Shown here one piece after another: positions 69 to 22,121 of a stretch of 22,746 bases of DNA. The translations under genes and the position numbers were made by a program. The notes below the pieces were generated by a model that saw nothing but the letters and a program-made list of their open reading frames with translations, ran no database searches and was not told where the DNA came from. Origin of the DNA: a virus. How positions within the stretch are numbered: position 1 is the stretch's first letter; the number at the start of each line of letters is the position of its first letter. The stretch spans positions 1 through 22,746 of the IMG/VR virus record IMGVR_UViG_3300030331_005537. The stretch is one strand, 5' to 3'.

Positions 69-200
69 AGTTGGTCCTTGACTCCCGGTCACTCCTCCAC
101 TTATTTTATTCCAAACACCATAGGTGGCATCATATGACCATGTGTTCTCACCTATTGTATGAGTTGAGCCACCTGATGGATTAAACGGAAATGCGGTCAT
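1..200 (-). CDS. Collagen-like Gly-X-Y repeat protein, probable virion fibre or surface protein (C-terminal part outside window)
   Basis: Only the first 66 residues or so lie in the window; the frame is open to base 1. A non-repetitive head of about 37 residues (with NTWSYDATYGVWNKI) runs into perfect Gly-X-Y triplets: GSQ, three GPT, three GAA, GVT, GPT. Such repeats form collagen triple helices and are common in phage tail fibres and bacterial surface filaments. The ATG at 200 overlaps the stop of the upstream glycosyltransferase by 4 nt (ATGA), and AAAGG lies directly against the ATG, so translation is probably coupled. The repeat DNA is much more GC-rich than the rest of the window. The threonines in the Y position are candidate O-glycosylation sites, because GPT repeats in Bacillus BclA are glycosylated. 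That and the virion location are inference; the collagen-like repeat itself is certain. Confidence 0.85.
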   Translation of the reverse strand, partial: MTAFPFNPSGGSTHTIGENTWSYDATYGVWNKISGGVTGSQGPTGPTGPTGAAGAAGAAGVTGPTG

Positions 201-1456
201 CCTTTAGCTTTTCTTTTTTTAAAAGTTTTATTATTTACCTTTTGCTTTAACGTCTCAACTTTTTGTTTATTATTCATACTTCTAAGCTGTAAATTAATTT
301 TCTTCACCTCATCATCACCAATTTGTGAAAGCACCTTCATGTATTCTTCCAAATTAGTTTTTACCCTTGACTCATGCTCCTTTGGAATAAGATTTTCCTC
401 CAGTAACTTTTTACATGCGGCATATCCTTCGTGCGGTTTACCAGCGAAAAACGCAGTGGCGCCAAGTTCATCCAACGAAACAAATCTATAAACATCCTCT
501 GAAATAAACAAAATATCATTTACTGGGAATTCCATTTCAACTGCCCTTTTTGCAAATATATAGGCGGCCGCGGGTCTACCATTTAATCTATTTAACCTTG
601 ATAACTCAACCAAAGGTTCCGCCCGGATTGGACGTATATTGTGTGCTTTAATGAATTCCATCTGCACGACATCCTCTGGCTCTTTAAGCACAGCAGATAG
701 TAAACCCACTCTGTATTGTGCATAATACGCTTCCTCATTCCAACCACCCTGCTCAACACGCTTCTTGTACGCCTTTTTTGCTTTTTCCCACTGTTGTGAA
801 TCAAAGTAGCTCTGTGCGAGATAAAATTGATATCTGTGATTTTCCGGATCATCCTCTAAGGCTTTTTCTAAAATTTCAGCATCTCGACTATACTTTTCTT
901 TCGCAGTGATACCAATATTTCTATTACCTTCTGTTCTAGCCGTTATGCTATAATCACCCTCAATTTTTCCAATCACACAATCTTGCTTTTTAGTTGCCTC
1001 CGCATACTCATGTAGGATACCAACATATCTCCAACCATGTTCCAATTTAAATATGTGGTTTCTCCACCAACTAAATGACTCTCTTCTAATACGTATTGCG
1101 TACCCATCAGCATCCATTTCATCAGGAAACTTAAAGTCCCCCTCGACCGTATCATCTGCATCAATCACCCAAGCAAAGTCTGCACCACCACTTTCAGCAT
1201 TCCTGAAAGCCTCTGTGCGAGATCCAATGTTACCTGCATGATCACCAAATCCCTTCCAATCAGATTGGTAAACCTCACCGGGTATATCATACTCAGCCAT
1301 TACATTTTTAATAATATCCTGAGTCCCATCAGTGGATCCAGTATCGGTAATATCATACCGATCAATATACGGTGCAATCGAGCGCAAACAACGCTCAATG
1401 ACATGCTTTTCATCTTTCACAATCATACAAAGGGTAATCGTTGGTTTACTTGACAT
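197..1456 (-). CDS. GT2-type glycosyltransferase with C-terminal TPR-like region
   Basis: The N-terminal GT-A domain (about residues 1-180) shows TLCMIVKDE near residue 10, DTGSTDGT at about 38-45 and the metal-binding DADD at about 99-102, the pattern of family 2 transferases. Residues from about 185 onward are helical with TPR-like repeats (for example AQSYFDSQQWEKAKKAY), a common partner in bacterial GT2 proteins that modify protein or glycan acceptors. The C-terminus is very lysine-rich. I chose the ATG at 1456 (419 aa, MSSKPTIT) because AGGAG stands four bases upstream; the in-frame ATG at 1474 has no ribosome-binding site. This is the last gene of the glycan island and its stop overlaps the start of the collagen-like gene by 4 nt, making that protein a natural candidate acceptor (inference). 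Donor sugar unknown. Confidence 0.88.
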   Translation of the reverse strand: MSSKPTITLCMIVKDEKHVIERCLRSIAPYIDRYDITDTGSTDGTQDIIKNVMAEYDIPGEVYQSDWKGFGDHAGNIGSRTEAFRNAESGGADFAWVIDADDTVEGDFKFPDEMDADGYAIRIRRESFSWWRNHIFKLEHGWRYVGILHEYAEATKKQDCVIGKIEGDYSITARTEGNRNIGITAKEKYSRDAEILEKALEDDPENHRYQFYLAQSYFDSQQWEKAKKAYKKRVEQGGWNEEAYYAQYRVGLLSAVLKEPEDVVQMEFIKAHNIRPIRAEPLVELSRLNRLNGRPAAAYIFAKRAVEMEFPVNDILFISEDVYRFVSLDELGATAFFAGKPHEGYAACKKLLEENLIPKEHESRVKTNLEEYMKVLSQIGDDEVKKINLQLRSMNNKQKVETLKQKVNNKTFKKRKAKG

Positions 1457-1571
1457 TTCACTCCTGTTTTTCATTATCTTTTGGAAAAGGTTACCATCAC
1501 CGAAGGGACATGGTCTTTATAATATGTATTGGTTTTTACACACTCAGTCCGAGCACCGGAACGGAGTAAAA
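1457..1571. other. Largest gap inside the glycan island, with weak hairpin and weak promoter-like motif
   Basis: This stretch of about 115 bases separates the HAD phosphatase from the TPR glycosyltransferase. I see no gene in it. It holds an imperfect hairpin (ACTC/GAGT and TCCG/CGGA arms, about 1542-1567) with no following T-run, and a minus-strand TATAAAGA at about 1514-1521 that differs by one base from the T4 late promoter TATAAATA and lies about 58 bases before the start at 1456. The AGGAG ribosome-binding site of the next gene is at its left end. Either motif could be chance. Confidence 0.3.
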
Positions 1572-1874
1572 TCATAGTGACCTAAAATACTCTTCGGAAT
1601 TTATATTCTTATCGTCAATAAACCAATCGTAAATAGGTTTTCCCAAGTGAAGTTCGTGATATTTAACACCCCATTCTTCGAACTGTTTTTCTGTCACCTC
1701 TCTCCAATCGAGACCACTCCCCGTTCCACGAGCAGTCCAGTAAATTACCGTATGCCCGTCTTCGTACAATTGATTGATACGATTTATTCTGTCAACCATC
1801 GGAACAGCCTTTGTATAATCTCTATCTTTAGGAGAGGTGCAAATAGTTTCATCAATGTCAACTCTATAGATCAT
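1572..1874 (-). CDS. Small capless HAD-superfamily phosphatase, capsule-biosynthesis type
   Basis: A 100-aa protein with the HAD signatures in order: DIDETI (residues 6-11, nucleophile Asp and acid/base Asp), WTARG (about 46-50, motif II) and DWFIDDK (about 83-89, motif IV). It resembles short phosphatases in bacterial capsule and lipooligosaccharide clusters, including the C-terminal GKPIYDWFIDDK stretch. It lacks a cap domain and is shorter than KdsC or the usual N-acylneuraminate-9-phosphatase. Its start overlaps the stop of the NeuB-like gene by 4 nt (ATGA), so it is translationally linked to nonulosonic acid synthesis. A role in dephosphorylating a 9-phosphate sugar intermediate is plausible but unproven; another sugar phosphate is equally possible. 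Confidence 0.75.
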   Translation of the reverse strand: MIYRVDIDETICTSPKDRDYTKAVPMVDRINRINQLYEDGHTVIYWTARGTGSGLDWREVTEKQFEEWGVKYHELHLGKPIYDWFIDDKNINSEEYFRSL

Positions 1875-2695
1875 GAAACTGCTTTCCGTAAACTATTCAT
1901 TTTTGAAAGTTCACCAGTGGTTCTGGTTCTAGGTCCACCGTGACCCAAAGATAGCTCTATGTCACGAATACCCTTCATCAATTTCATCAATCCAATTGGC
2001 TCTACTGAAGCCATTTGATCACTACCGAACATAGTTCTATCTAGAGTAACATGCCTTTCCACCCAAGTAGCACCCATAGCGACAGCAGCAAACGTAGTCA
2101 CGAGACCATATTCGTGTCCACTATAACCGATCTCCACATGGGGGTACTTTTCTTTTAACCAATTTATATAATTTAAATTTAATTCCTCTATGGGTGATGG
2201 ATAAGTAGAATTCGTATGAAATACTAGATCAGGAGATCCAACGGAAATTACATTTTCCACTTCCTCTTCATTGCTCATACCGGTAGATACCATCAAATAA
2301 TCACTTCTTTCTCTAGCGTATCGCACCAACTCATTATCGGTTATCAAAGCCGATGGAATCTTCATTGTCCCACCAAAATTACTCATAAAATCTACGGATG
2401 GTTTATCCCAAACCGAAGCCAGGAACCCTATCTGTTTCTCATTAGCATAATTAAAGAGTTCTAGATATTCTTCATATCCAAACTCAATCTTTTTTTTGTA
2501 TTCCAAGTAGGTGAGTTCACCCCACGGAGTTGTCCGGATTACATCTTTCTGGTGATCAGGAACACAAATCTCTGGGGTTCTCTTTTGAAACTTCACATGA
2601 CTACAACCAGCAATAGAACAAACATCAATTAAATTCTTTGCTATTTCGACACTTCCATTATGGTTTATTCCAATTTCACCGATTACATTAATCAT
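1871..2695 (-). CDS. neuB: NeuB-like nonulosonic acid (sialic acid) synthase, single-domain form
   Basis: NeuB-family enzymes condense phosphoenolpyruvate with an N-acyl hexosamine to give a nonulosonic acid. This 274-aa protein shows the TIM-barrel signatures: GEIGINHNGS near residue 6, VKFQKR (barrel lysine), KIPSALITDN, VSTGM, HTNSTYPSP, GYSGHEYG and VERHVTLDR followed by GSDQMAS. It stops just after the barrel (SLRKAVS), where family members continue into an antifreeze-like SAF domain, so the usual 340-350 aa are not reached. The SAF domain supplies a substrate-contacting arginine in Neisseria NeuB, so its absence is notable. The glutamate normally a few residues after the KI(G/A)S lysine is also not visible here. 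AGGA stands eight bases before the ATG; the start overlaps NeuA by 8 nt and the stop overlaps the HAD gene by 4 nt. Exact product (Neu5Ac, legionaminic or pseudaminic type) cannot be told. Confidence 0.88.
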   Translation of the reverse strand: MINVIGEIGINHNGSVEIAKNLIDVCSIAGCSHVKFQKRTPEICVPDHQKDVIRTTPWGELTYLEYKKKIEFGYEEYLELFNYANEKQIGFLASVWDKPSVDFMSNFGGTMKIPSALITDNELVRYARERSDYLMVSTGMSNEEEVENVISVGSPDLVFHTNSTYPSPIEELNLNYINWLKEKYPHVEIGYSGHEYGLVTTFAAVAMGATWVERHVTLDRTMFGSDQMASVEPIGLMKLMKGIRDIELSLGHGGPRTRTTGELSKMNSLRKAVS

Positions 2696-3374
2696 TCAAA
2701 TCATCCTTTTTAAAATTATCAAGGTCTTCCATATAATCAATATCGAATATTTTATCTTGTAGTTGATAAAAAACAGTATCATTACAAAACAAATTCAAAT
2801 CCAATTCCTGTAGTTTACCGACCCGTGTTACAACCACATAATGACAACATTCAAAACAGGGGGGATACTCCTGCCTTCTATAGAGTTGATGTTCTACCAC
2901 CTTCGTTCCTGTGTGATTTTTATTCTCCAAGAAACACATATAGGGGTGAACTTTTAATTCTTTTCTGCACAAAAGAGAACCATTACCATTCTTGGTATAA
3001 AAATCATATATTTTTTGAACATCATCCCAAGTTCTTTGTGGATATGTTAGGTATAGTGTTATCACATCATGATCTTGTTCTAGATTAAGCTCTGTCACTA
3101 CATTAGAAATAACATCTCTCATGCTAGTGGAATCCAAGGACAGATCTTGATTTCTATGTATGGTTCTAAAACCAAGATCTTTTGATCTCTGTAAAAGATG
3201 TTCGTCATCACTGGTAAAGACAACATTTTCCCGCATGTCCTCGGGAATTATAGAGGCTGTATAGTCGAATAAAAATCTGTTTTTGCCCGGAAACCCAACC
3301 GATCCTTTTCTTGCAGGGATTATTATAGTAACATCTTTCATATCAACACAAGGTTTAGTTATGACAAATGGCAT
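2688..3374 (-). CDS. neuA: NeuA-like CMP-nonulosonate (acylneuraminate) cytidylyltransferase
   Basis: These enzymes transfer CMP from CTP to a nonulosonic acid to make the donor used by sialyltransferases. The 228-aa protein has the nucleotide-binding signature IIIPARKGSVGFPGKN (about residues 17-32; family consensus PARGGSKGIPGKN), VVFTSDDE, a TYPQR stretch in place of the usual TSPLR, and a C-terminal IDIDYMEDL typical of the family. I kept the ATG at 3374 because AGGA precedes it by seven bases; the alternative ATG at codon 12 has no ribosome-binding site. It sits immediately before the NeuB-like gene and overlaps it, the classical pairing. The deviating TYPQR could mean an unusual sugar substrate. 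Confidence 0.87.
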   Translation of the reverse strand: MPFVITKPCVDMKDVTIIIPARKGSVGFPGKNRFLFDYTASIIPEDMRENVVFTSDDEHLLQRSKDLGFRTIHRNQDLSLDSTSMRDVISNVVTELNLEQDHDVITLYLTYPQRTWDDVQKIYDFYTKNGNGSLLCRKELKVHPYMCFLENKNHTGTKVVEHQLYRRQEYPPCFECCHYVVVTRVGKLQELDLNLFCNDTVFYQLQDKIFDIDYMEDLDNFKKDDLND

Positions 3375-3377
3375 ATA

Positions 3378-4043
3378 TCAGTCCTCATATATGGGAAACT
3401 CTGAAAGATCTTTGTGAATACCCGAACTTTCAAGATCTTCATTTACCTCTCCTAATTGCTCAAATAGCACAATACCTCTTGCGGCCTGCTCTGGAGGCAT
3501 ATACATGTTCCAACCAACTGTATCAAATTCATCATCTTTATACAGTCGATCCATATGTCTACCCTCATACCTAACAACCTTAAACCATTCATAAGCGTCT
3601 TTGTCATCTGTGAGAATCATCCCACCCTTCCCAATCGGGACATGCTTTCTTCTATGAAAGGAAAGGCAGTAATAAGATCCCGGCACATACATGTTCTTTG
3701 TCATTCTGGTGGCAGAATCATAAACTGGAAATGGGTCAAGAGGATACGCACCGCTCCACTCAATATCATCAAAGTTAACTTTGCACCCAGCGTGAAGAAT
3801 TGTACACGGAACAGACACATATGTCCGTCGTGGAATAGTCACTTCTCCATCTGCTTTAAGATACTTTAGACAAAGAAACATAGCATCGGTACAATTGTCC
3901 ACAGCAACTGCATATTTACTGCCCGCATACTCAGCGATCATCTTCTCAAAAGAATCAACGACATCCCAAGGATCCTCACAATTGTACCTTTCCATAACAG
4001 ATTCTAAAAGTTGTCTATCGTAATCTAGTGGATGAATTAACAT
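3378..4043 (-). CDS. Compact DegT/DnrJ/EryC1-type PLP sugar aminotransferase
   Basis: Members transfer an amino group to keto-sugar nucleotides. The 221-aa protein follows the family from SFEKMIAEYAGSKYAVAVDNCTDA (PLP phosphate region) through VYDSATRM (Asp about 109, ring-nitrogen contact) to SFHRRKHVPIGKGG with the Schiff-base lysine at about 133, and GWNMYMPPEQAARG (family GYNYRMTEIQAALG). It then ends about 30 residues later, whereas usual members run 360-400 aa with a further C-terminal small domain. The sequence upstream of the lysine is also compressed. The gene start overlaps the oxygenase by 7 nt (GGGA five bases upstream) and NeuA begins 3 nt after its stop, so no missing exon or frameshifted tail is visible. 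It probably makes an amino sugar for this island, but activity of such a short form is uncertain. Confidence 0.75.
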   Translation of the reverse strand: MLIHPLDYDRQLLESVMERYNCEDPWDVVDSFEKMIAEYAGSKYAVAVDNCTDAMFLCLKYLKADGEVTIPRRTYVSVPCTILHAGCKVNFDDIEWSGAYPLDPFPVYDSATRMTKNMYVPGSYYCLSFHRRKHVPIGKGGMILTDDKDAYEWFKVVRYEGRHMDRLYKDDEFDTVGWNMYMPPEQAARGIVLFEQLGEVNEDLESSGIHKDLSEFPIYED

Positions 4044-4747
4044 GCAGATCCCAACTTTGCATTTTCAATCGGGTCAAAAGTATTTGGTGTTTTATCTCTA
4101 CTCATTATATCATAATACCCACCAATTGCAAACCTCTGTCTTGTGGTACAACTAGCCAATGTGGAGTTTGGATCATACGCGAACCCAGGCATGACTCTAA
4201 AGTCAAAACTTACTCTGGTTCGATTAGTATCATTGTCCTTGTTACCATGCCTACACTGGTTCAAATAACCCATAAGAAACTCACCGTTATTTAGGTTGAT
4301 AGGAGAAAAATCACCAAGTCCGGGAAGGCTCTCCACCCAAATCGTATTATTACCAAATGACTCAGTTAATGGCAGAAAGATATTAATCTCACCTAGTGGA
4401 TGTCTGTGGTGTGCGTCTCCATCACAGTGCCATTTATAAACAGCTTTAGCGCCAGGCCTACAAAAACGAATACCGGGATACTTCTGATATAAAAGTTCAT
4501 CATCTTCAAACATCGGGAAGATTACCTCTCGAACGAACGCTTGGTATAAATTTGTAAATTCAGGCCAACCACCATCGGCATCGAGTCTTTGATAAAAAAT
4601 TTTATGGAATTCAGTCTTGGTATCGTTACCTAAAGTAAGATTAGTTTTCTGATCTTCGTTGTCCAGTTCAGTAAGGTCTGCATCATACAAACTCCCAACC
4701 AAGTCAGCAAAGTAATATTTTTTCTTATCGTAAGTTAAAATTTTCAT
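4037..4747 (-). CDS. StrG-like Fe(II)/2-oxoglutarate-dependent oxygenase
   Basis: The 236-aa protein carries the double-stranded beta-helix signature: WHCDGD (His107, Asp109) and GYLNQCRHGN (His167), then NRTRVSFDFRV with Arg178 placed to bind 2-oxoglutarate. The closest named relative I recognise is the StrG protein of streptomycin biosynthesis; similar proteins occur in surface-glycan clusters. I chose the ATG at 4747 because it forms an ATGA overlap with the upstream GT11-like gene and has GGA seven bases before it; a TTG four codons upstream is unlikely. Between a fucosyltransferase-like gene and an aminotransferase it may hydroxylate or otherwise oxidise a sugar or an amino-sugar substituent. 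The real substrate cannot be told. Confidence 0.75.
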   Translation of the reverse strand: MKILTYDKKKYYFADLVGSLYDADLTELDNEDQKTNLTLGNDTKTEFHKIFYQRLDADGGWPEFTNLYQAFVREVIFPMFEDDELLYQKYPGIRFCRPGAKAVYKWHCDGDAHHRHPLGEINIFLPLTESFGNNTIWVESLPGLGDFSPINLNNGEFLMGYLNQCRHGNKDNDTNRTRVSFDFRVMPGFAYDPNSTLASCTTRQRFAIGGYYDIMSRDKTPNTFDPIENAKLGSAC

Positions 4748-5604
4748 ATAAATTTCCAAACTTTATAATATTTAGACCCAGTATCATTGTACAAATCTAA
4801 CCAAAAATTATCATATGATTTCCAGTATGATTCAGGATAGTCTTCAGTGTAATTACCCCACATCACATATGACTCATCAAAATGTTTCCGTATCCAATCC
4901 AATGAATGAATTATTTTCTTATTTGGTTTGCCTAAAAAACCAGCGGTGATAACGAATGTACTAGAAGAACATATCAACACATCACATTCCGAAAGTAAAG
5001 CAAAATCTTTAAAATGATTACTCAAATCACCAACCACAAAGTTATGGTTTTTCTTTCTAAGGTAATCTATGGTTTCAATATATGTTTGAAATGATACATC
5101 GTCCGTACAAACATGATAGACAACATCACCAAACTCCAAGTCAACAACATCAATAGCTTTCTTATAATAATCAGGAGAATGAATCTCTCTTCCGTTATTA
5201 CCATCAGATGATATTATGTCGTCACCTCGAATATGAATACCAACATTAACCTTGGACTCATCTAAGACAGGTTTAAATTCCTCTCTTATTTGCAAGAAAT
5301 CTCTGGGATCTTTTTTTGTTAAATGATTAAATGTATTATGTAAGAGATAAGAAGGATCGTCTATGTGATAATCTCTATCCATCGGCAGTTGTGTTATATC
5401 ATCATGTAAAACAGTGTTCCAATTTAAGAAACTTTGAGGTTTGGTTGGCGGGGTATCATCGACAATACTTTCAAAAAAAGTATTACCCTCCCAACTACAA
5501 CAACTAGCTTCTACACCAAGTAAATCAGACAATTGTAATAGACTATTATATTGCAGTACTCTATTACCAAATCTACCGCCTGTTATTTTATTGATTCTTA
5601 TCAT
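4744..5604 (-). CDS. GT11-like (alpha-1,2-fucosyltransferase-like) glycosyltransferase, copy 1
   Basis: The 286-aa protein begins with GGRFGN (residues 9-14) followed by QYNSLLQL, has VGIHIRGDD (about 122-129) equivalent to the HxRxxD motif of GT11 and related fucosyltransferases, and a late SECDVLICSSSTFVITAGFLG block that corresponds to the conserved C-terminal acceptor/donor region. A homologue lies in the same island at 9188-9889 with the same blocks. It overlaps genes on both sides by 4 nt (ATGA). GDP-fucose is the likely donor by family, but no GDP-fucose synthesis genes are in the window, so the nucleotide sugar must come from the host or from elsewhere in the phage. Confidence 0.78.
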   Translation of the reverse strand: MIRINKITGGRFGNRVLQYNSLLQLSDLLGVEASCCSWEGNTFFESIVDDTPPTKPQSFLNWNTVLHDDITQLPMDRDYHIDDPSYLLHNTFNHLTKKDPRDFLQIREEFKPVLDESKVNVGIHIRGDDIISSDGNNGREIHSPDYYKKAIDVVDLEFGDVVYHVCTDDVSFQTYIETIDYLRKKNHNFVVGDLSNHFKDFALLSECDVLICSSSTFVITAGFLGKPNKKIIHSLDWIRKHFDESYVMWGNYTEDYPESYWKSYDNFWLDLYNDTGSKYYKVWKFI

Positions 5605-6296
5605 TTAGCCCAAACCATCCCCGAACGTTGAACCCATACCCTATCCTCCGGAATGGGACAATCTAGAAAATTATCAAACCCAGAGATAAATTCGTCCGCA
5701 GTTTTATAGTTAGTAATTTCATTGTCGTGATAATCGTGTGATGTATGCCATATTTCAGTTGAAAATAAAGTGAAACCAATAGTCTCCAAATGTCTAATTG
5801 ACTTAACCACCTTATCCCTGAGAGGTTCATGCCACTCAAAAGTAATCAAAGGAACTTTTTGACTTAGACCCAATAGAACCTCGTACTCATGACCTTCAAC
5901 ATCAATTTTTATAAAATCAGGTAGACCATGTTCCTCTATTAAGTAGTCAACTGTTATGGTTTCAACCTCGGTAGGTCTATCAAAAGTATAATGATCTTTA
6001 AATGCTTTCCCATCCTGCATTAATTTTTCAGATGCCCTGAAACAAGATTTCTCAAGAAAATCATTGTCTATGCTAGAAACACCACTATCTTCATTGCAGT
6101 GCAAGAGAGTGGCAGTTCCGAATGAGGAGGAGACAGCTTTGTTGTAAAGGAAAACACGGGATCCAAAATTAGAAACAAGATCACTGAAATGATGTAACTG
6201 AGGTTCTACCGCAACAAATTTAGCAGATGGCCACTTACGAATCGCATCTGCTAGATACTTGCCCTGATTACATCCTATATCAAAAATTAAATTCAT
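5601..6296 (-). CDS. FkbM-family SAM-dependent methyltransferase, copy 1
   Basis: The 231-aa protein shows the SAM-binding FDIGCNQGKY (about residues 5-14), VAVEPQ at the end of strand beta 2, and FIKIDVEGHEYEVLLG (about 138-153), the hallmark of FkbM-type O-methyltransferases, which commonly methylate sugar hydroxyls in glycan clusters. AGGTG seven bases before the ATG is a good ribosome-binding site, and the 32-nt gap before it (6297-6328) is one of the few spacers in the island. The stop overlaps the GT11-like gene by ATGA. Likely role is O-methylation of a sugar, perhaps as a chain cap; the position methylated is unknown. Confidence 0.85.
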   Translation of the reverse strand: MNLIFDIGCNQGKYLADAIRKWPSAKFVAVEPQLHHFSDLVSNFGSRVFLYNKAVSSSFGTATLLHCNEDSGVSSIDNDFLEKSCFRASEKLMQDGKAFKDHYTFDRPTEVETITVDYLIEEHGLPDFIKIDVEGHEYEVLLGLSQKVPLITFEWHEPLRDKVVKSIRHLETIGFTLFSTEIWHTSHDYHDNEITNYKTADEFISGFDNFLDCPIPEDRVWVQRSGMVWAK

Positions 6297-6328
6297 TGGG
6301 TTTCACCTGTAGAAGTAAAGCATCTCTT

Positions 6329-7099
6329 TCATTTCCAAATCCAATCTGTTGGTATATCTCTCGTCTCTACCGTGTCAACTCTATTAAATTCTTTATGATG
6401 ATCCAATCGACTCTCATAAGAACCTCGACCATCGAGTTCCTCTATTTTAGCGTAGAATTCTAATTTCTCACCGTTGAGATAACTGGGACACAGTTTGCCG
6501 TAATGAATAATGTAGAAGTCCTCTTGTTCCCCAACCTTGCCAGAATTATTTGGGGCAGGATGATATCTAGAACACCCACCTTTCTGAACCTCTAAGTCAT
6601 AACTATAGTTTATATTCTTATCAAATTTCATTAAGGGATACTTAAACCAAGCGTTATCCGAAAATGGATCAAAGTTAGCTTCTCTATTAAACTTTGTATT
6701 ATATTTGTCCACTCTGTATTTGGTTTCATCATCCCATAGATTTATCATTCTAGACCTCCACAGAAAAACATCATTGTTCATGTTCTCCATGAAATTTACT
6801 ATACTTGGCGTGGGTATCTCATCAGCGTCTAAGAGTAAAACATAATCTGGATCATGCTCGCCGAGGATATTAATAAGTTCCGACCTTTGCTTTGCTTCTT
6901 CTCGAAGTATAGGATTGTGTTCAGGTCTAACTCTCCAGTCAACCTTATCGAACGACTTACATATTAGTTCTGTTTTGTCTGTACTACCATCATCATACAC
7001 TACAATCTCTTCGCAAAAATTACCCAAAGCAGTTAGAGTTTTCTCTATGATCCAGTCTTCATTTTTTGTTGTCAGTCCGGCAACTAATTTATTGTTCAT
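6329..7099 (-). CDS. GT2 family glycosyltransferase (GT-A fold)
   Basis: The 256-aa protein opens with LVAGLTTKNEDWIIEKTL, then VVYDDGSTDKT (about 33-43) and LLLDADEIPT (about 88-97), the donor and metal-binding (DAD) motifs of family 2. Conserved WRSRMINLW and a late HYGKL are typical of single-domain phage and surface-polysaccharide GT2 enzymes. GGAG lies seven bases before the ATG and the start overlaps the sialyltransferase-like gene by ATGA. Its substrate is unknown. Confidence 0.87.
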   Translation of the reverse strand: MNNKLVAGLTTKNEDWIIEKTLTALGNFCEEIVVYDDGSTDKTELICKSFDKVDWRVRPEHNPILREEAKQRSELINILGEHDPDYVLLLDADEIPTPSIVNFMENMNNDVFLWRSRMINLWDDETKYRVDKYNTKFNREANFDPFSDNAWFKYPLMKFDKNINYSYDLEVQKGGCSRYHPAPNNSGKVGEQEDFYIIHYGKLCPSYLNGEKLEFYAKIEELDGRGSYESRLDHHKEFNRVDTVETRDIPTDWIWK

Positions 7100-7815
7100 T
7101 GATCTTCTCCATGAAAAGATACATTTATGAAATCATTTAATTCTTCAGTCAAAGTTGCACTCGTAGTAGTAAATTCAAAATCAATTGACGCATTTTCTTG
7201 TACCAACTCTTTTATATATTCTAGAGCATGTTGATCGTGACCATTTTCTTGATTATATACGAACCCATCTTTAAGAATTGCACCTTGATCAAAAAGATAA
7301 TGGAGATTTGATTGTAAGTGCTCTGGTTCAAAGTAGTACATCCTATCCCCCTTGTTCATTAAATCAAAACCAACCATAGAAATTATTTTATACTTGCGAG
7401 ACTGAATAGCATAACTAAATGCTATGACACCAGTAGAGGGAGAAAATACATTTCCAGAAAGGGTTCTGAAAATAATTGTTCGGTTTGGTCCCGGTTCAAA
7501 GTCGGGATATGTTATTGTTACAAGACGATTATAATATTCAGGAACATCCAATTGTTGTTCTGGTGCGGCTGTACTAACAATTTCTTTTATACCAAATTCT
7601 TTTATTTCATCCTCTGAAAACCTGTCTGTTGAGTTGTTGGTAAATTGTACCGCTGCCTTCTTGGGGATATATTTCTCATAACCATCCCAGATGGGTTTAT
7701 TGCAAATTATCACATCGTCAAACCTGTTGATATAATCGGGGGTGGTTTTGAGAATACTCGGACCCTTTCCCACGACGACACAACTTCTAGCAGTATTCGA
7801 AGGAGACACTATCAA
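7096..7815 (-). CDS. Sialyltransferase-like (GT29/GT42-like) protein
   Basis: The 239-aa protein starts with SCVVVGKGPSILKT (about 11-24) followed by RFDDVIICNK (about 31-40), the arrangement of the CMP-binding region in GT42 (CstI/CstII: GNGPSL then RCN) and of sialylmotif L in GT29. A second block FSPSTGVIAFSYAI...IISMVGFD (about 125-151) matches the motif-S pattern (PSTG, then YGFD-like). With NeuA and NeuB in the same transcript it is the obvious user of the CMP-nonulosonate. The start is uncertain: TTG at 7815 overlaps the upstream stop as TTGA with AAGGG upstream, and GTG at 7809 is the alternative. Family assignment is by motif only; a DUF115-like or other capsule transferase is the main alternative. 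Confidence 0.62.
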   Translation of the reverse strand: MIVSPSNTARSCVVVGKGPSILKTTPDYINRFDDVIICNKPIWDGYEKYIPKKAAVQFTNNSTDRFSEDEIKEFGIKEIVSTAAPEQQLDVPEYYNRLVTITYPDFEPGPNRTIIFRTLSGNVFSPSTGVIAFSYAIQSRKYKIISMVGFDLMNKGDRMYYFEPEHLQSNLHYLFDQGAILKDGFVYNQENGHDQHALEYIKELVQENASIDFEFTTTSATLTEELNDFINVSFHGEDQ

Positions 7816-8585
7816 AGATCCACCCTTAAGCTATGAGGAATGATTTGATCGTTTGGATCAAGTTCCCTGATATCAAATTGCGTACCATTGTCGAATGGAT
7901 ATTTCTTATTTTCTATCGCATCTTCTAGTAATTTTTCATCCGAACAAAATCTATATCGAGGATGACTGTATGTGTCTAACTTGTGAATCATTTCTTTGGG
8001 TGTCATACACCAAGAAAAATGACAACCAACATACTGATCTGTCACCCTACCAATATCTCTCCAGTTGTATGGGTATTTTTTTGATATGCTCCCATAATAT
8101 GTTGCTATCGGAGAAGTAAAATCTTTATTTTTCCAGAGGTAAGTCTTCTTATAAAAGAACTGTCTGAGTTTCAGTGCAACTACTTTGTGCTTCTGAACTT
8201 CACTAATAATGTAAGCTATCTTATCCCCATAAATTATCTCATCTGCATCTATTGATATGATGATATCATCATCATTGAAATCATATAATTTTGTGAAATA
8301 ACTTCTCATTACTGGTTCATTCACATTATGAATTGCGTCCTCGTTTTCATAAGCCCTTGCAGTCTCATTAAAAACTTCACACGCATGGTAATCTATTTTA
8401 TCACGAAGATGCTCTGGAACTTTATCCTCAAGATTCTGGAATTGAAAATTTCTCTTCACTCCAGTATGATTGATATCAAACTCACAGACAATCATCTTCT
8501 CAATATGGTCATAACACTCTTCTAAGTTAGCAATGATGAATTCAAGTTCATGTGGGGCGTACATGTATGTTTTTAAATATATCAT
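7812..8585 (-). CDS. GT17-like glycosyltransferase (GnT-III-like N-acetylglucosaminyltransferase family)
   Basis: The 257-aa protein shows the GT17 pattern: ELEFIIANLEE, VCEFDINHTG (about 33-42), NEDAIHN, DDIIISIDADEI (about 106-117, the DxD), a YYG stretch, and VGCHFSWC with K..TYSHP (about 187-209). GT17 includes eukaryotic beta-1,4-mannosyl-glycoprotein GlcNAc-transferases and many bacterial and viral proteins. Its ATG follows directly on the TAG of the preceding methyltransferase with no gap, and its stop is used in a TTGA overlap with the next gene. A GlcNAc donor is likely by family only. Confidence 0.8.
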   Translation of the reverse strand: MIYLKTYMYAPHELEFIIANLEECYDHIEKMIVCEFDINHTGVKRNFQFQNLEDKVPEHLRDKIDYHACEVFNETARAYENEDAIHNVNEPVMRSYFTKLYDFNDDDIIISIDADEIIYGDKIAYIISEVQKHKVVALKLRQFFYKKTYLWKNKDFTSPIATYYGSISKKYPYNWRDIGRVTDQYVGCHFSWCMTPKEMIHKLDTYSHPRYRFCSDEKLLEDAIENKKYPFDNGTQFDIRELDPNDQIIPHSLRVDL

Positions 8586-9191
8586 CTAACCAATCCTAAT
8601 AACTGCATAAGAAAATAATGGGTGAATTTGTTTGTCCTCAGTATGAGTTATCACATCATAGTCGAAAATTTGTTTTGCTCTATCTAGAAAATCATAATGA
8701 TTCACATCATCAATCATGACATAACAAGGACTTTTCAATTTACCAACCAAATGAGAAAAAGCAAGACTCCTACCATTTCCATTAGGACCGTCAATAAGAA
8801 CCAAATCAATATCATCTGGTAAGTCTTCATCAGTCAAATCATAAAAACAATTTTTTGCACGGAAGTTATCCTTTTCATGTTGAGCAGTTGAAAACACATC
8901 TTTAGTTATTTTTCTATCTTCAAACATTTTATCAAATGCTTCGTCATCACATGTCACAAGATCTCTGATTGTTGCTGAACCAAAGGCATAAGCATCGTTG
9001 TGATCGAAAGAGGTTAGAGAGTAGTCTAAATTGTGAAGTGTTCTAAAATCATTAAAGAATCTACTAGACTGACCAGAACCAAACTCAACTATATTTTTTA
9101 TATCTTTAGTTAAAATAATATTTTCCAACTCCAAGAGTTGACAACTATGAAGACCCATACCACCAATCCAATACGAATTGTAATCAATCAT
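8586..9191 (-). CDS. Class I SAM-dependent methyltransferase-like protein
   Basis: The 201-aa protein has a Rossmann pattern: IVEFGSGQSSRFF (about 34-46, SAM-binding glycine motif), LTSFDHND (acidic end of the second strand), DLVLIDGPNGNGRS (about 129-142) and CYVMIDDVNHYDF. It is the class seen in small-molecule and glycan methyltransferases, distinct from the two FkbM proteins in this island. I chose the ATG at 9191 because GGAG stands six bases upstream and it makes an ATGA overlap with the GT11-like gene; the in-frame ATG at 9203 has no ribosome-binding site. Target unknown. Confidence 0.7.
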   Translation of the reverse strand: MIDYNSYWIGGMGLHSCQLLELENIILTKDIKNIVEFGSGQSSRFFNDFRTLHNLDYSLTSFDHNDAYAFGSATIRDLVTCDDEAFDKMFEDRKITKDVFSTAQHEKDNFRAKNCFYDLTDEDLPDDIDLVLIDGPNGNGRSLAFSHLVGKLKSPCYVMIDDVNHYDFLDRAKQIFDYDVITHTEDKQIHPLFSYAVIRIG

Positions 9192-9889
9192 ATTAATCTC
9201 CATAAAGAATAATCTTCATTTCCACCATCATTTAAATCAACCCAGAACTTATCTTCCTTGCTAACTCTATCAGATACCCAACTGTTGCAATGAATAATTT
9301 TCTTATTCTTACCGATAAATCCTGCACATATACAATATGTAGACGGACTAGAAATAATATAATCACACTCACTCATAGCAGAGAAATCTTCGACATATTG
9401 CTGTCTGTTTGGTACGTTAACACCAACTACAATATTTTTTGATTTTTCTTCTAGATATTTTACCACGGATTTGTATGATTGCAATTCTTTATCATCGGTA
9501 AATAAATAGAATGTTTCTGCTGGAACTTCTTCGATAGCATTCAAATAGTATTCCTCACCCAAAACTGCATCAGAGTTCCATTGGAAAAAATCAGTTCCCC
9601 TAAAATGAATTGCAGCAGAATTAGGCTCAACTATAGATTTTTGTTTGAGTTCAAAAATCGTTCGTGTTGGAATTGTCCTCCACTCAAAAAACTTTTCCCC
9701 AAGACAAAGATTCAATGATCTGTCTCCGGACTGAGAACCATTCAATAAATCCCCAGTAAAAATCTGAGAGCCCTCCCACGGAACACAAGACCATTCTTCA
9801 TTCTCTTTCGCTGCTAACTGTCGAAGATTATTGTAATAAAGAATCTTATTTCCAAATCCACCGCTTGTCATGGTAGTAATAGAAATCAT
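9188..9889 (-). CDS. GT11-like glycosyltransferase, copy 2
   Basis: The 233-aa protein repeats the plan of the gene at 4744-5604: MTSGGFGNKILYYN at the start, AIHFRGTDF (HxRxxD equivalent, about 93-101) and SECDYIISSPSTYCICAGFIG near the end. It is about 50 residues shorter, mostly between the first two blocks and at the C-terminus. I chose the ATG at 9889 (ATGA overlap with the upstream gene, GGAAG upstream, and alignment with the other copy) over a GTG five codons earlier. Likely a fucosyltransferase-like enzyme with a different acceptor or linkage. Confidence 0.75.
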   Translation of the reverse strand: MISITTMTSGGFGNKILYYNNLRQLAAKENEEWSCVPWEGSQIFTGDLLNGSQSGDRSLNLCLGEKFFEWRTIPTRTIFELKQKSIVEPNSAAIHFRGTDFFQWNSDAVLGEEYYLNAIEEVPAETFYLFTDDKELQSYKSVVKYLEEKSKNIVVGVNVPNRQQYVEDFSAMSECDYIISSPSTYCICAGFIGKNKKIIHCNSWVSDRVSKEDKFWVDLNDGGNEDYSLWRLI

Positions 9890-10572
9890 GGGTTTGTCTT
9901 CCACCCCCTATCGATCCAATAATCATATAGACCAAATCGAACACTATCGTGACCCTGCTTCTTGAACGTAGCATGTTCGTCAACGCCCAAATTCTGCATT
10001 ACGTCTCCCCACACATCTGGATTCGATGCTGGTTGAGCAGGAAAGTAGGAATCAATATCACCATGAATTTTGCAGGAAGCACAGAAGTGTATATCTTCTC
10101 CATTATCATAGGTTGGTGGATTTTCTCTCCACATGTAGTGAATCCACTCTGTCTTAAAAAACCAACAATGACCAACTATATCACATTTGATATTGTTTAA
10201 ATTTCCATCACCGCAACCAAATCCAGTCTTGTTGTAATTTCTACAATTCGCTCCAACGATACAATTCTTCTCATCACAAAGTTCTTTACAATGTTGCAAC
10301 CATTTTGGGTTAGGAATTGTATCATCATCAAAGATAGCCGTATACTTGCTATCGAACAATAGAGGTAGAGTAAATCTTCCGTGAAACTTAAAATTCACAT
10401 CTTTAGAATGTACATGTTTAAATTTATATTTTTCTTTGAGATTATCGACATTGACATGCTGTTCATTTTGGTAAACATATATCTCACTAACATCTGCGGT
10501 TTGCTTCTGAATTGCCTGCAACTGCCTTTCTAAAGTATCTCTCTTCCAGACAGTAAGTATTACGTTTATCAT
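9886..10572 (-). CDS. GT-A glycosyltransferase, GT2/GT64-like
   Basis: The 228-aa protein opens with INVILTVWKRDTLERQLQAI, the start of GT2/GT64 folds, and has YTAIFDDDTIPNPKWL (about 77-92), where DDD is the metal-binding motif. NGEDIHFCASCKIHG (about 157-171) holds the ED pair expected of the catalytic base region. A tail with PDVWGDVMQNLG follows. It abuts the preceding gene with no gap and has GGA six bases before the ATG. Exostosin-type GT64 enzymes share the DDDT motif; donor unknown. Confidence 0.78.
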   Translation of the reverse strand: MINVILTVWKRDTLERQLQAIQKQTADVSEIYVYQNEQHVNVDNLKEKYKFKHVHSKDVNFKFHGRFTLPLLFDSKYTAIFDDDTIPNPKWLQHCKELCDEKNCIVGANCRNYNKTGFGCGDGNLNNIKCDIVGHCWFFKTEWIHYMWRENPPTYDNGEDIHFCASCKIHGDIDSYFPAQPASNPDVWGDVMQNLGVDEHATFKKQGHDSVRFGLYDYWIDRGWKTNP

Positions 10573-11385
10573 CTATATTCCAATATTATTTTTTTCTAGT
10601 ATTTCCATTGTTGTGTCAAAGGTGCCTTTAATAGAAGAGTTTTTCTCAAACCATTCTATACAATTATCCGACATCATCTTCCATTTTTCCCTTGAGCAAG
10701 CACCAACAAGTTCGGTAGCTTCCTCTGGTGTATTAGCTTTCAGATAATGCACACCTTCTTCGATTCGATTAAAGTGTTCAACAGAGCAACCCGGAGTTAT
10801 TACAGGAACAACCCCAAGCCCCATGTATTCGATGTCCCTCAAACATTTTGGACCCACTCCCGGCAAACAAAGACCAAACTTCATTTTAGATAATACTTCT
10901 AAATACCCAATTGGAGAATATGCATCTCCACTTGCAGTCAATATAAAGAAGTCACAACACTGCTCCCAATTTAAAGTTCTTAGTGGAGTTGTCTTGCTCC
11001 CAACAAAGCCTAATAAAACTTCCCTGTCATCATATGAAAACCTACTATTTATTTTAAAGTCTTCGTATAGTTTAGAATGTTTAGGCCAGAAAGACCAAGC
11101 ACTCGATCTCTCACCCTCTAACATGCTATTTGCCCACAAGGAAAACTTCCAATTTCGATCTGCTGGGATTCTATCAAGCAAAGCAAAATCATACAACATG
11201 ATATCACCAACATCTCCCATCCAACACTTTGCCTCTGGTAGATTCAATACATCCGTGTTAAAACTGTAAGTGGGAACCGGGCATGGTTTTACTTTACAAT
11301 AACCTCGCTCCCCCCAAACATCAACTAGTCCCCGAAAAGAATCAGTGCTATGTTCACAAAAATATGGTTTTATAATGGTAACCAC
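10573..11385 (-). CDS. Putative exostosin/GT47-like (GT-B) glycosyltransferase
   Basis: The 270-aa protein has few strict signatures, but the C-terminal half, with YLEVLSKMKFGLCLPGVGPKCLRDIEYMGLGVVPVITPG, is the pattern of GT47/exostosin and other GT-B donor-binding halves (small-residue loop, then E, then G.VPVI). Residues 1-120 would be the acceptor half. I chose the GTG at 11385 because GGGAG lies five bases upstream and it starts one base after the upstream stop; a TTG at 11400 is the alternative. Family level is tentative; glycosyltransferase function is fairly likely from pattern and context. Confidence 0.62.
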   Translation of the reverse strand: MVTIIKPYFCEHSTDSFRGLVDVWGERGYCKVKPCPVPTYSFNTDVLNLPEAKCWMGDVGDIMLYDFALLDRIPADRNWKFSLWANSMLEGERSSAWSFWPKHSKLYEDFKINSRFSYDDREVLLGFVGSKTTPLRTLNWEQCCDFFILTASGDAYSPIGYLEVLSKMKFGLCLPGVGPKCLRDIEYMGLGVVPVITPGCSVEHFNRIEEGVHYLKANTPEEATELVGACSREKWKMMSDNCIEWFEKNSSIKGTFDTTMEILEKNNIGI

Positions 11386-11386
11386 A

Positions 11387-12145
11387 TCAACTCCCGACAA
11401 TCAAATCTACCAGCTTGTCTATTTCTTCCTTATGTTGCTGATAAGGTCGTATGGAGTGACAATCGTAGTAGTAATCCTGAGTCACCAAATCTGGTTCATA
11501 TCCCCATGTGGGCCTATCAATTCTAAATCCGTTCTGCCCTCCATTGCGGGGAATTAGAACTACATCTCCACTACCATAAAACCTTTCCATCACCTTTTTA
11601 CTACCATAATATTCATCAGCAAACCAACAATCCTTACCAGACAATTCCCCGCCGGGATCTTTACCGTTCTTTAAGTTAAAAATAAACTTGATTGAATCTT
11701 CCCAGTTGTCGTGCAAATCTAAAACCTCTTTATACTTAGATCCCTTTGCAATATGATAACAACTAGGAATCATACCATAGCTCTCCAAGCAAGGATTAAT
11801 ATGCACATAAAAATCGTCTGGTATTTCTGCAATATTATCCACAAAATATTTCTTAGAAAGTGGGAGCATGTCGATATCGCTCAAAATACTAATGGAATCT
11901 GGTTTCTGGGAGGGATACCAATATCTTACCCAAAGATTTTGTAGATAAACAGGTATATCTTCCACAGGCTTGAATTTTACAACTTCACCATAAGTATTAT
12001 CAATATCAATGTCATGGTTTTCATCTACGTAAATTAGAAGTGGTGTAATATCGAACTTAAGTTTCCATATTTTACTAACAATGGGCCAAAAGTCCAAATA
12101 CATGCTATTAGAATCTGAACTGTGTATTGCGTATTCAATTTTCAT
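11387..12145 (-). CDS. Putative GT-A-fold glycosyltransferase
   Basis: The 252-aa protein has SILSDIDMLPLSKKYF (about 85-100), where DID is a DxD metal-binding motif as in many GT-A enzymes, followed by a region rich in aromatic residues and ADEYYGSKK (about 176-184). I do not recognise a named family. It overlaps the upstream gene by ATGA with GAGG seven bases before the ATG. Position inside an unbroken row of transferases supports the call. Confidence 0.6.
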   Translation of the reverse strand: MKIEYAIHSSDSNSMYLDFWPIVSKIWKLKFDITPLLIYVDENHDIDIDNTYGEVVKFKPVEDIPVYLQNLWVRYWYPSQKPDSISILSDIDMLPLSKKYFVDNIAEIPDDFYVHINPCLESYGMIPSCYHIAKGSKYKEVLDLHDNWEDSIKFIFNLKNGKDPGGELSGKDCWFADEYYGSKKVMERFYGSGDVVLIPRNGGQNGFRIDRPTWGYEPDLVTQDYYYDCHSIRPYQQHKEEIDKLVDLIVGS

Positions 12146-12819
12146 TCTATATCCTCATTTTCTTCATTGCAATCAATAAAAGCGTACCCGACATGCTGCC
12201 TTGGTCTAGGCTGAGTGGGAAAAGGTTTTACCTCCTGTGTCTCGCTATGGCGTAACCAATCATCATGTGCGATTATATCATTCGCATGATAATTGTCAAA
12301 CACCAACTCCAAGAATGTCTGATCACGCCACACATAGCCAGACATGTGTTGATAATTGTCTTTGTGTAGTCCAGTGGAATCTGAGAGCAATTTAGTCATA
12401 TCAAAAAGTTTTTGCTTTGGTTTGCACCCCCACATACCAGTTTGAAATTTCATGTTATGCTCTTTTGCATCGCGCATGGAGTGCAGTGTTTTATCACTAT
12501 CTAACCAATCATGAACTGCTTCCGACTCCCGCTTAGAAAGTCTAGAGTCAATATCACGAACTATAACAGCGTCATACGAGGTATCATCAACGGCTAAACA
12601 TCTCCAGACCACACCACATATCGGCGAAGATGTCATGTCGATAATATCAAATCCCTGAGATCGAAGGGTTTCGATCACATCCATTGGAACAGAATCATCA
12701 ACGTAGCATACCAAGTCCCAACCCGGATAAAATTTATCAGCGAGATCTTTATTCTGCACTGCGTTCCCAATGTACCGAGGATCATCTCCATATAAGCTAT
12801 AAGAAATCAAACCTCGCAT
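12142..12819 (-). CDS. Putative GT-A-fold glycosyltransferase
   Basis: The 225-aa protein starts GLISYSLYGDDPRYIGNAVQN, contains AVIVRDIDSRLSKRE (about 84-98), with a DID metal-binding motif, then WLDSDKTLHSMRDAKEHN and QTGMWGCKP. This set is found in small transferases of viral and bacterial surface-glycan clusters that place the DxD near residue 90. The start overlaps the end of the bifunctional GT gene by 13 nt and has only a weak GAAG before the ATG, so coupled translation is likely. Family and donor are not recognised. Confidence 0.62.
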   Translation of the reverse strand: MRGLISYSLYGDDPRYIGNAVQNKDLADKFYPGWDLVCYVDDSVPMDVIETLRSQGFDIIDMTSSPICGVVWRCLAVDDTSYDAVIVRDIDSRLSKRESEAVHDWLDSDKTLHSMRDAKEHNMKFQTGMWGCKPKQKLFDMTKLLSDSTGLHKDNYQHMSGYVWRDQTFLELVFDNYHANDIIAHDDWLRHSETQEVKPFPTQPRPRQHVGYAFIDCNEENEDIE

Positions 12820-14255: not shown

Positions 14256-14889
14256 TTTGTCTCCCTACAGACTGCCACTCAATGACATCCTCAGACATTC
14301 CCATTTTTCTTAAAGATTCTTTTTTTGAATCGACATCGGACAACCCCATAACAATCACCGTGCTATCAGTTTCTTGTCCTGGCCATGTGCAATAGTCAGG
14401 ACCAACAAAACCAATATTAATTTTTTCAATATACTCACTAACAATACCAAATAGCGGTTCGTGATCAAAGAGTTCAACATCGTTTTTTATATTATTATCT
14501 ACGGCAGATATCCAACTCCGAAGTAGATTTTTTGTGTTCTCTGTGCTATTAAAAAACAAAGGAGAAGCCTTTATACCACTAAGATTTGGAACTGCGGTGG
14601 ATAAAGCAATATCAGTGCTATCAGGTAAAGCAGCAAAGTCCACGGGATTCTTCAACAGAATCGTATCGATATCAAGCCATAAAAGAGGACAGTCATGTTC
14701 CTCTAACTTATCTAAAATATACTTTGGCTTTCGTGAGCAATTAAGTTTATACGAACCCAAAGAATTCAATTTTTCTATTTCATATGGTAGATCAAATTTA
14801 TCTAATGCACGAATTAAGTCCACAGAACACTTTTCGTAGTAAAGAGAATCATCTACATCACAAAAATAACTTATCACTTTATAGTTCAT
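14245..14889 (-). CDS. Stand-alone GT-A glycosyltransferase, paralogue of the N-terminal domain of the next gene
   Basis: The 214-aa protein aligns with the N-terminal domain of the fusion at 12807-14255: both have NC..KP.YIL (about 50-59), a WIDID/WLDID metal motif (about 71-75), a FN.TE.....L..WIS stretch and DHE.L. It therefore appears to be a tandem duplicate or the parental unfused gene. The ATG shares its first base with the TAA of the FkbM gene (TAATG) and has an AGAG site eight bases upstream. Donor unknown. Confidence 0.72.
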   Translation of the reverse strand: MNYKVISYFCDVDDSLYYEKCSVDLIRALDKFDLPYEIEKLNSLGSYKLNCSRKPKYILDKLEEHDCPLLWLDIDTILLKNPVDFAALPDSTDIALSTAVPNLSGIKASPLFFNSTENTKNLLRSWISAVDNNIKNDVELFDHEPLFGIVSEYIEKINIGFVGPDYCTWPGQETDSTVIVMGLSDVDSKKESLRKMGMSEDVIEWQSVGRQNEN

Positions 14890-15560: not shown

Positions 15561-15959
15561 TCATTTTTTACCTATATGGTATTTAGGTACCAACTCCCAG
15601 TCATTTTTATCCTTGTGAGAAATGATTTTAATCTGCGCTAAACTGGCTTGGGGTTCCTTAACCTTTTCTGTCTCAATAATATCACACAAATTCCACTCAT
15701 TTAGTAAATCGACTATTGTGTTCCTCCTCGCTAAATCATCATCAGTTATGTCCGAAGACAATCCGTCAAGGATAAACAATTCTTTAAAGTGCATTATAGC
15801 GTATCTACCTCGTTTGTGCAAAATGTGGCACGACTGAAATAGTTTATTTTCTTTTCTAGAAGAGACACCTATTCGTGTGAGTGTTTCTCTGATTTTTAAA
15901 AAATCATCTTTTTCTCTTAGAGAAACTTCTACTCCGAGATCATTAAATATATTTTCCAT
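15561..15959 (-). CDS. regA: RegA translational repressor
   Basis: RegA binds the translation start regions of many early T4 messages, including its own, and represses them. The 132-aa protein matches T4 RegA along its length: DDFLKIRETLTRIGVSSRK, LFQSCHILHKRGRYAIMHFKE, DDDLARRNTI and the C-terminal WELVPKYHIGKK. T4 RegA is 122 aa. GGAG stands seven bases before the ATG at 15959. In T4 the neighbour after regA is DNA polymerase gene 43; here an FkbM methyltransferase follows after 18 nt, so this is the boundary between the core and the glycan island. Confidence 0.96.
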   Translation of the reverse strand: MENIFNDLGVEVSLREKDDFLKIRETLTRIGVSSRKENKLFQSCHILHKRGRYAIMHFKELFILDGLSSDITDDDLARRNTIVDLLNEWNLCDIIETEKVKEPQASLAQIKIISHKDKNDWELVPKYHIGKK

Positions 15960-17607: not shown

Positions 17608-17609
17608 AA

Positions 17610-21047: not shown

Positions 21048-21057
21048 ATCTGATATG

Positions 21058-22119: not shown

Positions 22120-22121
22120 TC

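Follow-up and report, generated by a model that had tools for sequence, protein, structure and literature searches.

A compact gene set in an uncultured marine T4-like phage looks able to make and transfer an activated sialic-acid-type sugar

Nonulosonic acids govern recognition at cell and virus surfaces, and bacteria make them by routes such as NeuB-NeuA-NeuC for N-acetylneuraminic acid (Neu5Ac), LegI-LegF for legionaminic acid and PseI-PseF for pseudaminic acid. Here we ask whether a bacterial virus could build and attach such a sugar with genes of its own. The question is raised by a 22,746-nucleotide IMG/VR virus record (IMGVR_UViG_3300030331_005537), a fragment with the rest of the genome unseen; this whole 22.7-kb stretch is called the window below. 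In it lie genes for a NeuB-like synthase, a NeuA-like transferase of cytidine monophosphate (CMP), a HAD phosphatase and a sialyltransferase-like protein. We find that the source is an uncultured marine T4-like phage and that its compact gene set looks able to produce an activated sialic-acid-type sugar and to transfer it with the sialyltransferase-like protein. The route is probably a phosphorylated one, leading to a CMP-nonulosonate that a GT29-type enzyme would transfer; this judgement concerns the route and not 2-keto-3-deoxynononic acid (KDN) as such.

All four genes are open frames on the minus strand, at the places given by an initial annotation made from the sequence (Table 1). They belong to a series of 19 minus-strand genes (1572-15542) in which neighbours either overlap by 1-19 bp or lie 0-32 bp apart. 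At the 3' end of this run NeuA, NeuB and HAD follow one another, each overlapping the next (8 bp for NeuA/NeuB, 4 bp for NeuB/HAD). The initial annotation had described all four genes as one overlapping set, which holds end to end for NeuA, NeuB and HAD, but the GT29-like gene stands further upstream, parted from NeuA by five genes. Its gene list named the four pathway genes correctly but omitted the DegT, 2-oxoglutarate (2OG), GT11, FkbM and GT2 genes in between.

The synthase matches PF03102 with 204.3 bits against a cut-off of 22.1, and its assignment to the NeuB family thus passed the profile check. Its predicted model (predicted local distance difference test, pLDDT, 93.8) aligns with sialic acid synthases and their relatives at Z 29-35 (6ncs, Z 34.8, 3.4 A, 261 residues aligned; Neisseria NeuB, Z 33.3) and with synthases of 3-deoxy-D-manno-octulosonate 8-phosphate (KDO8P) or 3-deoxy-D-arabino-heptulosonate 7-phosphate (DAHP) at Z about 22-25 (best DAHP synthase row, Z 24.6, 2.2 A, 216 aligned). 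As modelled, the TIM-barrel fold is nearer to NeuB than to KDO8P/DAHP synthase.

What sets this synthase apart is what it lacks. The 274-aa protein shows no match to the C-terminal SAF domain, the frame ending 59 residues past the His aligned to Neisseria His236, and it has Leu at the position aligned to Neisseria Glu134, where 5/5 printed relatives from the PDB have Asp or Glu. Residues aligned to Glu25, Gln55, Lys129, Tyr186, Ser213, His215 and Glu234 are kept. The same state is found in 103/156 dereplicated viral NeuB proteins, which are SAF-less and acid-less and have SGHE where SDH is usual, proportions among viral types that reflect the anchors used for the scans. Among 120 SAF-less viral proteins with both sites aligned, the Glu134-aligned acid is missing in 112 (Leu in 65, Met in 28), and the core residues of the metal and phosphoenolpyruvate (PEP) sites are kept in >90%. 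It is likewise absent from 80/80 printed cellular SAF-less relatives (out of 216; 271-306 aa; bacteria and archaea). The patterns of that cellular scan included GYSGHE, so its presence there carries no information; the scan did not select for loss of the acid or of SAF. In the control genomes, ordinary NeuBs combine the acid with SAF, apart from a few cases. From these alignments we assign the window synthase to a distinct NeuB subfamily with neither SAF domain nor Glu134-aligned acid. Because viral and cellular SAF-less sequences are intermixed in a 125-protein tree, where at least 6 label changes are forced, gene transfer seems to have happened on more than one occasion; many of the cellular entries are metagenome-assembled genomes, which may include stray viral contigs.

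Other NeuB forms occur among the loci that we compared (labelled L with a number). A second, altered NeuB of ~245 aa stands beside an intact NeuB and a NeuA-type gene in L010 (8562-9308), L011, L016 (10201-10773, cut by the contig end) and L019 (5458-6192); its metal and PEP residues are changed (GNHC), and it is perhaps a partner with another function. NeuB proteins of ~490 aa are found in L150, L162, L182, L190, L124 and L130. The L150 protein reads NeuB-SAF-cupin, its cupin part is near D-lyxose isomerase, and the others share its C-terminal part. An apparent NeuB-HAD fusion in L022 was rejected, being only a long upstream start.

The NeuA frame, whose start may be an internal ATG (Met12), has a single NCBIfam match, to PseF (TIGR03584; 37.9 bits, cut-off 205.7), and its best PDB match is the CMP-Neu5Ac synthetase 6ifd (phmmer E 4e-8). 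The nucleotide loop IPAR..S.G...KN, the RQ pair and D.D...D are invariant in 14 aligned phage NeuA sequences; a single-sequence viral scan with the window NeuA returned no relatives. The HAD protein keeps the DxDxT, T, K and D motifs in alignment and matches PHROG 1238 (101 bits) and, weakly, EcbF-BcbF (22.8 bits). In L018 a HAD fused to a cupin (10811-11524; Cupin_2, 31.7 bits) comes directly after NeuB.

For the sialyltransferase-like protein, the family profile, bridging relatives and predicted fold agree, bearing out the initial assignment. The PF00777 match, of 27.1 bits against a cut-off of 23, is confined to residues 7-63. A profile that combines this protein with two relatives picks up L167 at 41.7 bits, a protein whose own PF00777 score is 95.9 bits, and a wider GT29 profile of 13 sequences lists 16 PDB sequences, 15 of them sialyltransferases (best E 2e-16) and one unrelated (E 0.18). 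The predicted model (pLDDT 89.3) aligns with CstII at Z 12.7 (4.2 A, 201 residues) and with the mammalian sialyltransferase 2wnf at Z 11.7 (3.5 A, 174 residues), and the top 18 structural matches listed are all sialyltransferases (Z 10.9-12.7, root-mean-square deviation 3.5-4.5 A, 174-201 aligned). As predicted, the protein folds like solved sialyltransferases. Between GT29 and GT42, Pfam favours GT29 and the two Z scores are about tied. The protein by itself found no match in a PDB sequence search and no relatives in a single-sequence viral scan. In L384 a GT29 gene (9389-9997; PF00777, 93.7 bits) lies directly before a small HAD, with no NeuB seen in that locus; a supposed GT29 gene beside HAD in L339 gave no match on checking and was rejected.

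Do these genes travel together outside the window? Viral contigs were scanned from NeuB, NeuA, GT29 and HAD anchors, with a GT4 gene of the same clusters as control anchor; the NeuA scan covers the best 80 of 100 and the HAD and GT4 scans the best 80 of >570 each. NeuB is present in 68/80 NeuA-anchored, 61/80 HAD-anchored and 6/6 GT29-anchored loci, and in 8/80 control loci. For loci of at least 15 kb the counts are 58/62 (NeuA), 52/62 (HAD), 5/5 (GT29) and 6/48 (control). The NeuA and GT29 anchor alignments derive from NeuB-scan loci, and some loci share sequence with the NeuB scan (16/80 NeuA, 6/80 HAD, 2/80 GT4, 2/6 GT29). With these contigs and near-copies taken out, NeuB is found in 46/56 NeuA, 47/65 HAD and 5/62 control loci of all lengths, and in 38/42, 38/48 and 3/38 of the long ones (Fisher p 1e-14 for NeuA and 1e-11 for HAD). 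HAD occurs in 57/80 NeuA loci vs 9/80 control loci. GT29-anchored loci have NeuB and a CMP-transferase in 6/6 cases (3/3 with shared contigs and near-copies taken out), and a GT29 gene lies within 100 bp of a CMP-transferase in 7/80 NeuA loci. The NeuB-NeuA-HAD module is real. One locus, L202, judged by eye from frame starts, has the window's set of GT17, GT29, 2OG, short DegT, NeuB, HAD and GT2-TPR genes, and differs from it in having another CMP-transferase after NeuB and an extra epimerase.

How might these enzymes work together? In the route that we propose, the SAF-less NeuB would form a nonulosonate-9-phosphate by condensing PEP and a hexose-6-phosphate, for which mannose-6-phosphate is the likeliest candidate. 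The HAD would then take off the phosphate, the NeuA-type enzyme would form the CMP-sugar, and the GT29-like enzyme would transfer the sugar onto a glycan that the phage builds with the neighbouring transferases. Cellular relatives of the synthase bear on the phosphorylated step. Of the SAF-less cellular synthases, 32/64 at pattern-chosen loci and 7/12 at control-set loci have, within 1.5 kb, a CMP-transferase fused to a KdsC/KDN-9-phosphatase-like HAD; for ordinary NeuBs the counts are 0/46 and 0/3. These counts come from the 64 of 80 cellular loci that gave a SAF-less frame and from control loci of only 3.7 kb, in which SAF state was classed by length and 9/12 SAF-less cases came from genomes first picked for having one. 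Three of the cellular fusion partners score 94-128 bits to the KDN-9-phosphatase model NF058599, below its cut-off of 180. Epimerase_2 genes lie near 10/46 ordinary NeuBs, and near 1/64 and 0/12 SAF-less ones. The phosphatase linkage points to a 9-phosphate intermediate.

By analogy, the likeliest product may be KDN made from mannose-6-phosphate, a tentative choice that we place a little short of probable. It draws on the cellular fusions; on the human synthase, which according to PMC6795526 can take mannose-6-phosphate; on Serratia, where neuA and neuB give mainly KDN and NeuB carries an extra COG1082 domain (PMC9000132); and on the architecture of L152, whose NeuB-SAF-AP_endonuc_2 protein overlaps a phage-type NeuA. 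A NeuB with an AP_endonuc_2 domain is also found in L198. The fullest version, in which a large marine T4-like phage lineage would make its own KDN from host mannose-6-phosphate and cap its virion glycans through a eukaryote-like GT29 enzyme, we think unlikely as a whole.

Several observations weigh against the phosphorylated route or its KDN form. On the side of the synthase, the window NeuB scores 205.7 bits to the N-acetylneuraminate synthase equivalog TIGR03569, which has a cut-off of 399.65, and the loss of the Glu134-aligned acid could mean lost activity, which leaves synthase function not assured. NeuA scores 17.4 bits to PF02348, below the cut-off of 22.6; the initial call of a NeuA-like CMP-transferase missed on that profile and held through the PseF and CMP-Neu5Ac synthetase relatives and the conserved motifs. 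The phage phosphatase is a smaller HAD of a different family from the cellular fusion HAD, and the window protein matches neither KdsC nor NF058599 models at E 0.01. Its family is unspecific, with a relative in 384/50,697 phage records; relatives are annotated as phosphoheptose isomerase in 16/20 rows listed, and HADs of this family also stand beside ordinary NeuBs in L252 and L253. The close clade of the GT29-like protein found no match in a PDB sequence search, and five genes part that protein's gene from NeuA. L152 and L198 resemble the Serratia KDN architecture but are not of the SAF-less type, and KDN is not known to be made by any SAF-less synthase. A SAF-less synthase is found in the species Brevibacterium iodinum; for its strain VKM Ac-2106, which is not the sequenced strain, PMC6801904 reports other teichoic acids. 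A direct link through Brevibacterium as a KDN producer was rejected, since the paper gives other polymers for B. iodinum.

One further adverse point leads to a rival explanation: WecB-like epimerases of the Epimerase_2 family overlap the 3' end of HAD in the close relatives L122, L131, L202, L203 and L003, which hints at N-acetylmannosamine (ManNAc) chemistry. The product would then be an N-acetylated nonulosonate, Neu5Ac-like or legionaminic-like, with a ManNAc-type acceptor supplied by a 2-epimerase acting on uridine diphosphate (UDP)-N-acetylglucosamine, which either the host or another part of the phage genome would encode. A LegC-like aminotransferase in the relative L013 and the window's half-length DegT beside NeuA, with LegC as best match, fit this view. 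The 97-bp gap between HAD and GT2-TPR in the window (1475-1571) is the site of the WecB-like epimerase in L122 and L202. However, all seven epimerases scored in NCBIfam are nearer the non-hydrolysing WecB than NeuC (202-287 vs 45-84 bits; 5/7 over the WecB cut-off), from which UDP-ManNAc rather than free ManNAc is expected; the name 'NeuC' was rejected for these phage genes. The window holds no epimerase, and its synthase lacks the SAF domain whose Arg314, according to PMC6795526, positions the N-acetyl group of ManNAc in Neisseria NeuB (R314A is inactive). Weighing both sides, we regard an N-acetylated product as distinctly unlikely. Two other readings fare worse. The synthase could lack activity, with NeuA and GT29 scavenging or modifying a host nonulosonate, as the acid missing from so many viral proteins and the clearly altered sites of the GNHC paralogues would allow; but the preserved metal and PEP sites and the same acid-less state throughout the printed bacterial and archaeal relatives make this improbable. 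Least credible of all is an eight-carbon or other ulosonate, such as 3-deoxy-D-manno-octulosonic acid (KDO), instead of a nine-carbon sugar. A KdsC-type phosphatase accompanies the cellular relatives, and KdsB and KdsC profiles match the cellular fusions, but in sequence and fold the synthase stands closer to sialic acid synthases, KDO8P synthase reaching Z about 22-23; NeuA has its match in PseF and, at E 0.01, none among the KdsB models; and the linked transferase has a predicted sialyltransferase fold.

The phosphorylated CMP-nonulosonate route is the one we keep. The initial annotation had proposed that the phage makes and transfers its own sialic-like sugar, and families, fold and linkage agree with that proposal, but the set is not the standard bacterial one for Neu5Ac: SAF domain and Glu134-aligned acid are missing, a phosphatase is linked, and no hydrolysing epimerase NeuC is found in the 22.7-kb window. 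Little weight can be put on the lack of NeuC, or of any other gene, in a fragment such as this.

Where would the sugar go? We lean towards virion proteins over a membrane-exported polymer as the glycan target, judging from the gene content. Hydropathy over 19 residues peaks at 1.59 among the window frames and predicts no membrane protein; as none of them reaches 1.6, the window shows no sign of export machinery. At its end the cluster also abuts a collagen-like frame (3-200). The initial annotation had named alteration of the host surface as its alternative, and cyanophage genes of lipopolysaccharide type are described as modifying host cell surfaces in PMC9602691; set against the missing membrane proteins and the collagen-like frame into which the cluster runs, a change of host surface polysaccharide during infection seems doubtful to us, if still well worth considering.

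Table 1. Predicted genes in the window, with the profile or model on which each call rests
Feature	Position	Strand	Support
Small HAD phosphatase, proposed nonulosonate-9-phosphate phosphatase	1572..1874	-	PHROG 1238, 101 bits; catalytic motifs
SAF-less NeuB-family nonulosonate synthase, 274 aa	1871..2695	-	PF03102 204.3 bits; predicted fold
NeuA/PseF-type CMP-nonulosonate cytidylyltransferase (predicted)	2688..3374	-	TIGR03584 37.9 bits; 6ifd match
Half-length DegT-type aminotransferase, role uncertain	3378..4043	-	PF01041 85.8 bits
Putative 2OG-Fe(II) oxygenase, weak call	4037..4759	-	TIGR04324 21.8 bits, cut-off 150
GT11-like glycosyltransferase	4744..5604	-	PF01531 34.3 bits
FkbM methyltransferase	5601..6296	-	TIGR01444 86.5 bits
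GT2 glycosyltransferase	6329..7099	-	PF00535 43.2 bits
Sialyltransferase-fold (GT29/GT42-like) protein, proposed CMP-sugar transferase	7096..7815	-	PF00777 27.1 bits; predicted fold
Remaining co-oriented glycan cluster: GT17, methyltransferases, GT11, GT2, GT10, unassigned frames	7812..15542	-	Pfam, some below cut-off
TPR-repeat GT2 glycosyltransferase at the cluster's downstream end	197..1474	-	PF00535 31.4, TPR_14 27.6 bits
T4-type RegA, gp62, Cpn10, gp44, gp45	15561..18281	-	PF01818, PF16790, PF00166, PF21328, PF09116

The remaining genes identify the carrier. Three frames of the glycan cluster, within 7812-15542, have no Pfam match. Beyond it, on the same strand, lie the T4 gp45, gp44, gp62 and RegA homologues that the initial annotation had reported, with the RegA start 7.7 kb from the region annotated first (RegA 141 bits, gp62 58 bits, gp44 lid 55 bits, gp45 52 bits). 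The clamp, clamp loader and RegA genes by which a phage is called T4-like are thus all found in the window. Of the gp45 relatives listed from phage records, the best is that of Pelagibacter phage HTVC008M, at 46% identity. A Cpn10-type co-chaperonin gene sits between gp62 and gp44 (16385-16678, minus; 23 bits, cut-off 21.1). Further along the minus strand are a protein of 542 aa that carries an N6/N4 DNA methylase domain close to the C-terminal end (19467-21095; 26.8 bits, cut-off 26.7) and a glutamine synthetase gene (21058-22182; PF00120 64.9 bits, PF03951 40 bits) with a relative in the viral locus L002. The window's DegT keeps SFH..K, and half-length DegT genes (~220 aa) occur also in L003, L004, L012, L013, L202 and L204, often near a 2OG-type gene.

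Set beside known systems, the phage set resembles the bacterial Neu5Ac, legionaminic and pseudaminic routes in pairing a PEP-dependent NeuB-family synthase with a NeuA/PseF-family CMP-transferase, and departs from them in that it is phage-borne, its synthase has neither SAF domain nor Glu134-aligned acid, a phosphatase is linked, and the window shows no epimerase of the hydrolysing kind. A KDN-9-phosphate route operates in Bacteroides thetaiotaomicron. The phage set, as predicted, would share with such a route its three steps of synthase, HAD phosphatase and CMP-transferase, starting from mannose-6-phosphate, though its HAD is of a different, shorter family; the human synthase follows the route as a side activity (PMC6795526). 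In the Serratia marcescens KL1/KL2 capsule loci neuA and neuB are set apart as two genes, with KDN the main sialic acid there, and the extra domain after that NeuB recurs in phage loci L152 and L198 (for Serratia, PMC9000132); the window synthase differs from the Serratia NeuB as described in lacking both the SAF and the extra domain. The transferase shares its fold and conserved sialyl-motif pattern with the solved GT29 enzymes ST3Gal1 and ST8SiaIII and with CstII of GT42. These known enzymes use CMP-sugars; the phage protein is only 12-20% identical to them in structural matches and, unlike them, is encoded beside its own donor pathway.

How widespread is the gene set? It recurred in many environmental phage sequences and hardly in catalogued phages. 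NeuB relatives are found in 3/50,697 phage records, namely an uncultured phage, a single-cell marine virus and an 11.7-kb Moritella viscosa record, none of them listed as a cultured lytic phage. The phage-type NeuA matches 1 or 2 phage records depending on the query, the L167-type GT29 matches one, and the window GT29-like protein matches none. LR756508, a 484-kb uncultured phage, has NeuA and NeuB, and its sequence resembles the L167-type GT29 in four places (L041; 325506-326006).

The enzyme families themselves are already known; new are their carrier, the unusual domain state of the synthase and the linkage. In literature coverage that leaves out most subscription journals, we found no report of a phage route for nonulosonate synthesis; PMC6292376, a candidate phage NeuB paper, was set aside because it matched through author names and references. 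Phage enzymes that modify nonulosonates are reported (PMC12053666, PMC6586298). Of these, the Acinetobacter prophage genes epaA/epaB likewise are phage-borne and act on a nonulosonic acid, but they convert a host-made sugar to its epimer (PMC12053666), while the window encodes predicted synthesis and activation. The SAF-less synthase subfamily offers a sharp case for how NeuB specificity changed. If the proposed route is true, phages would build their own nonulosonate cap, from synthase to transferase, rather than borrow it; in the fullest version, bacterial viruses would sialylate themselves by a complete route of their own.

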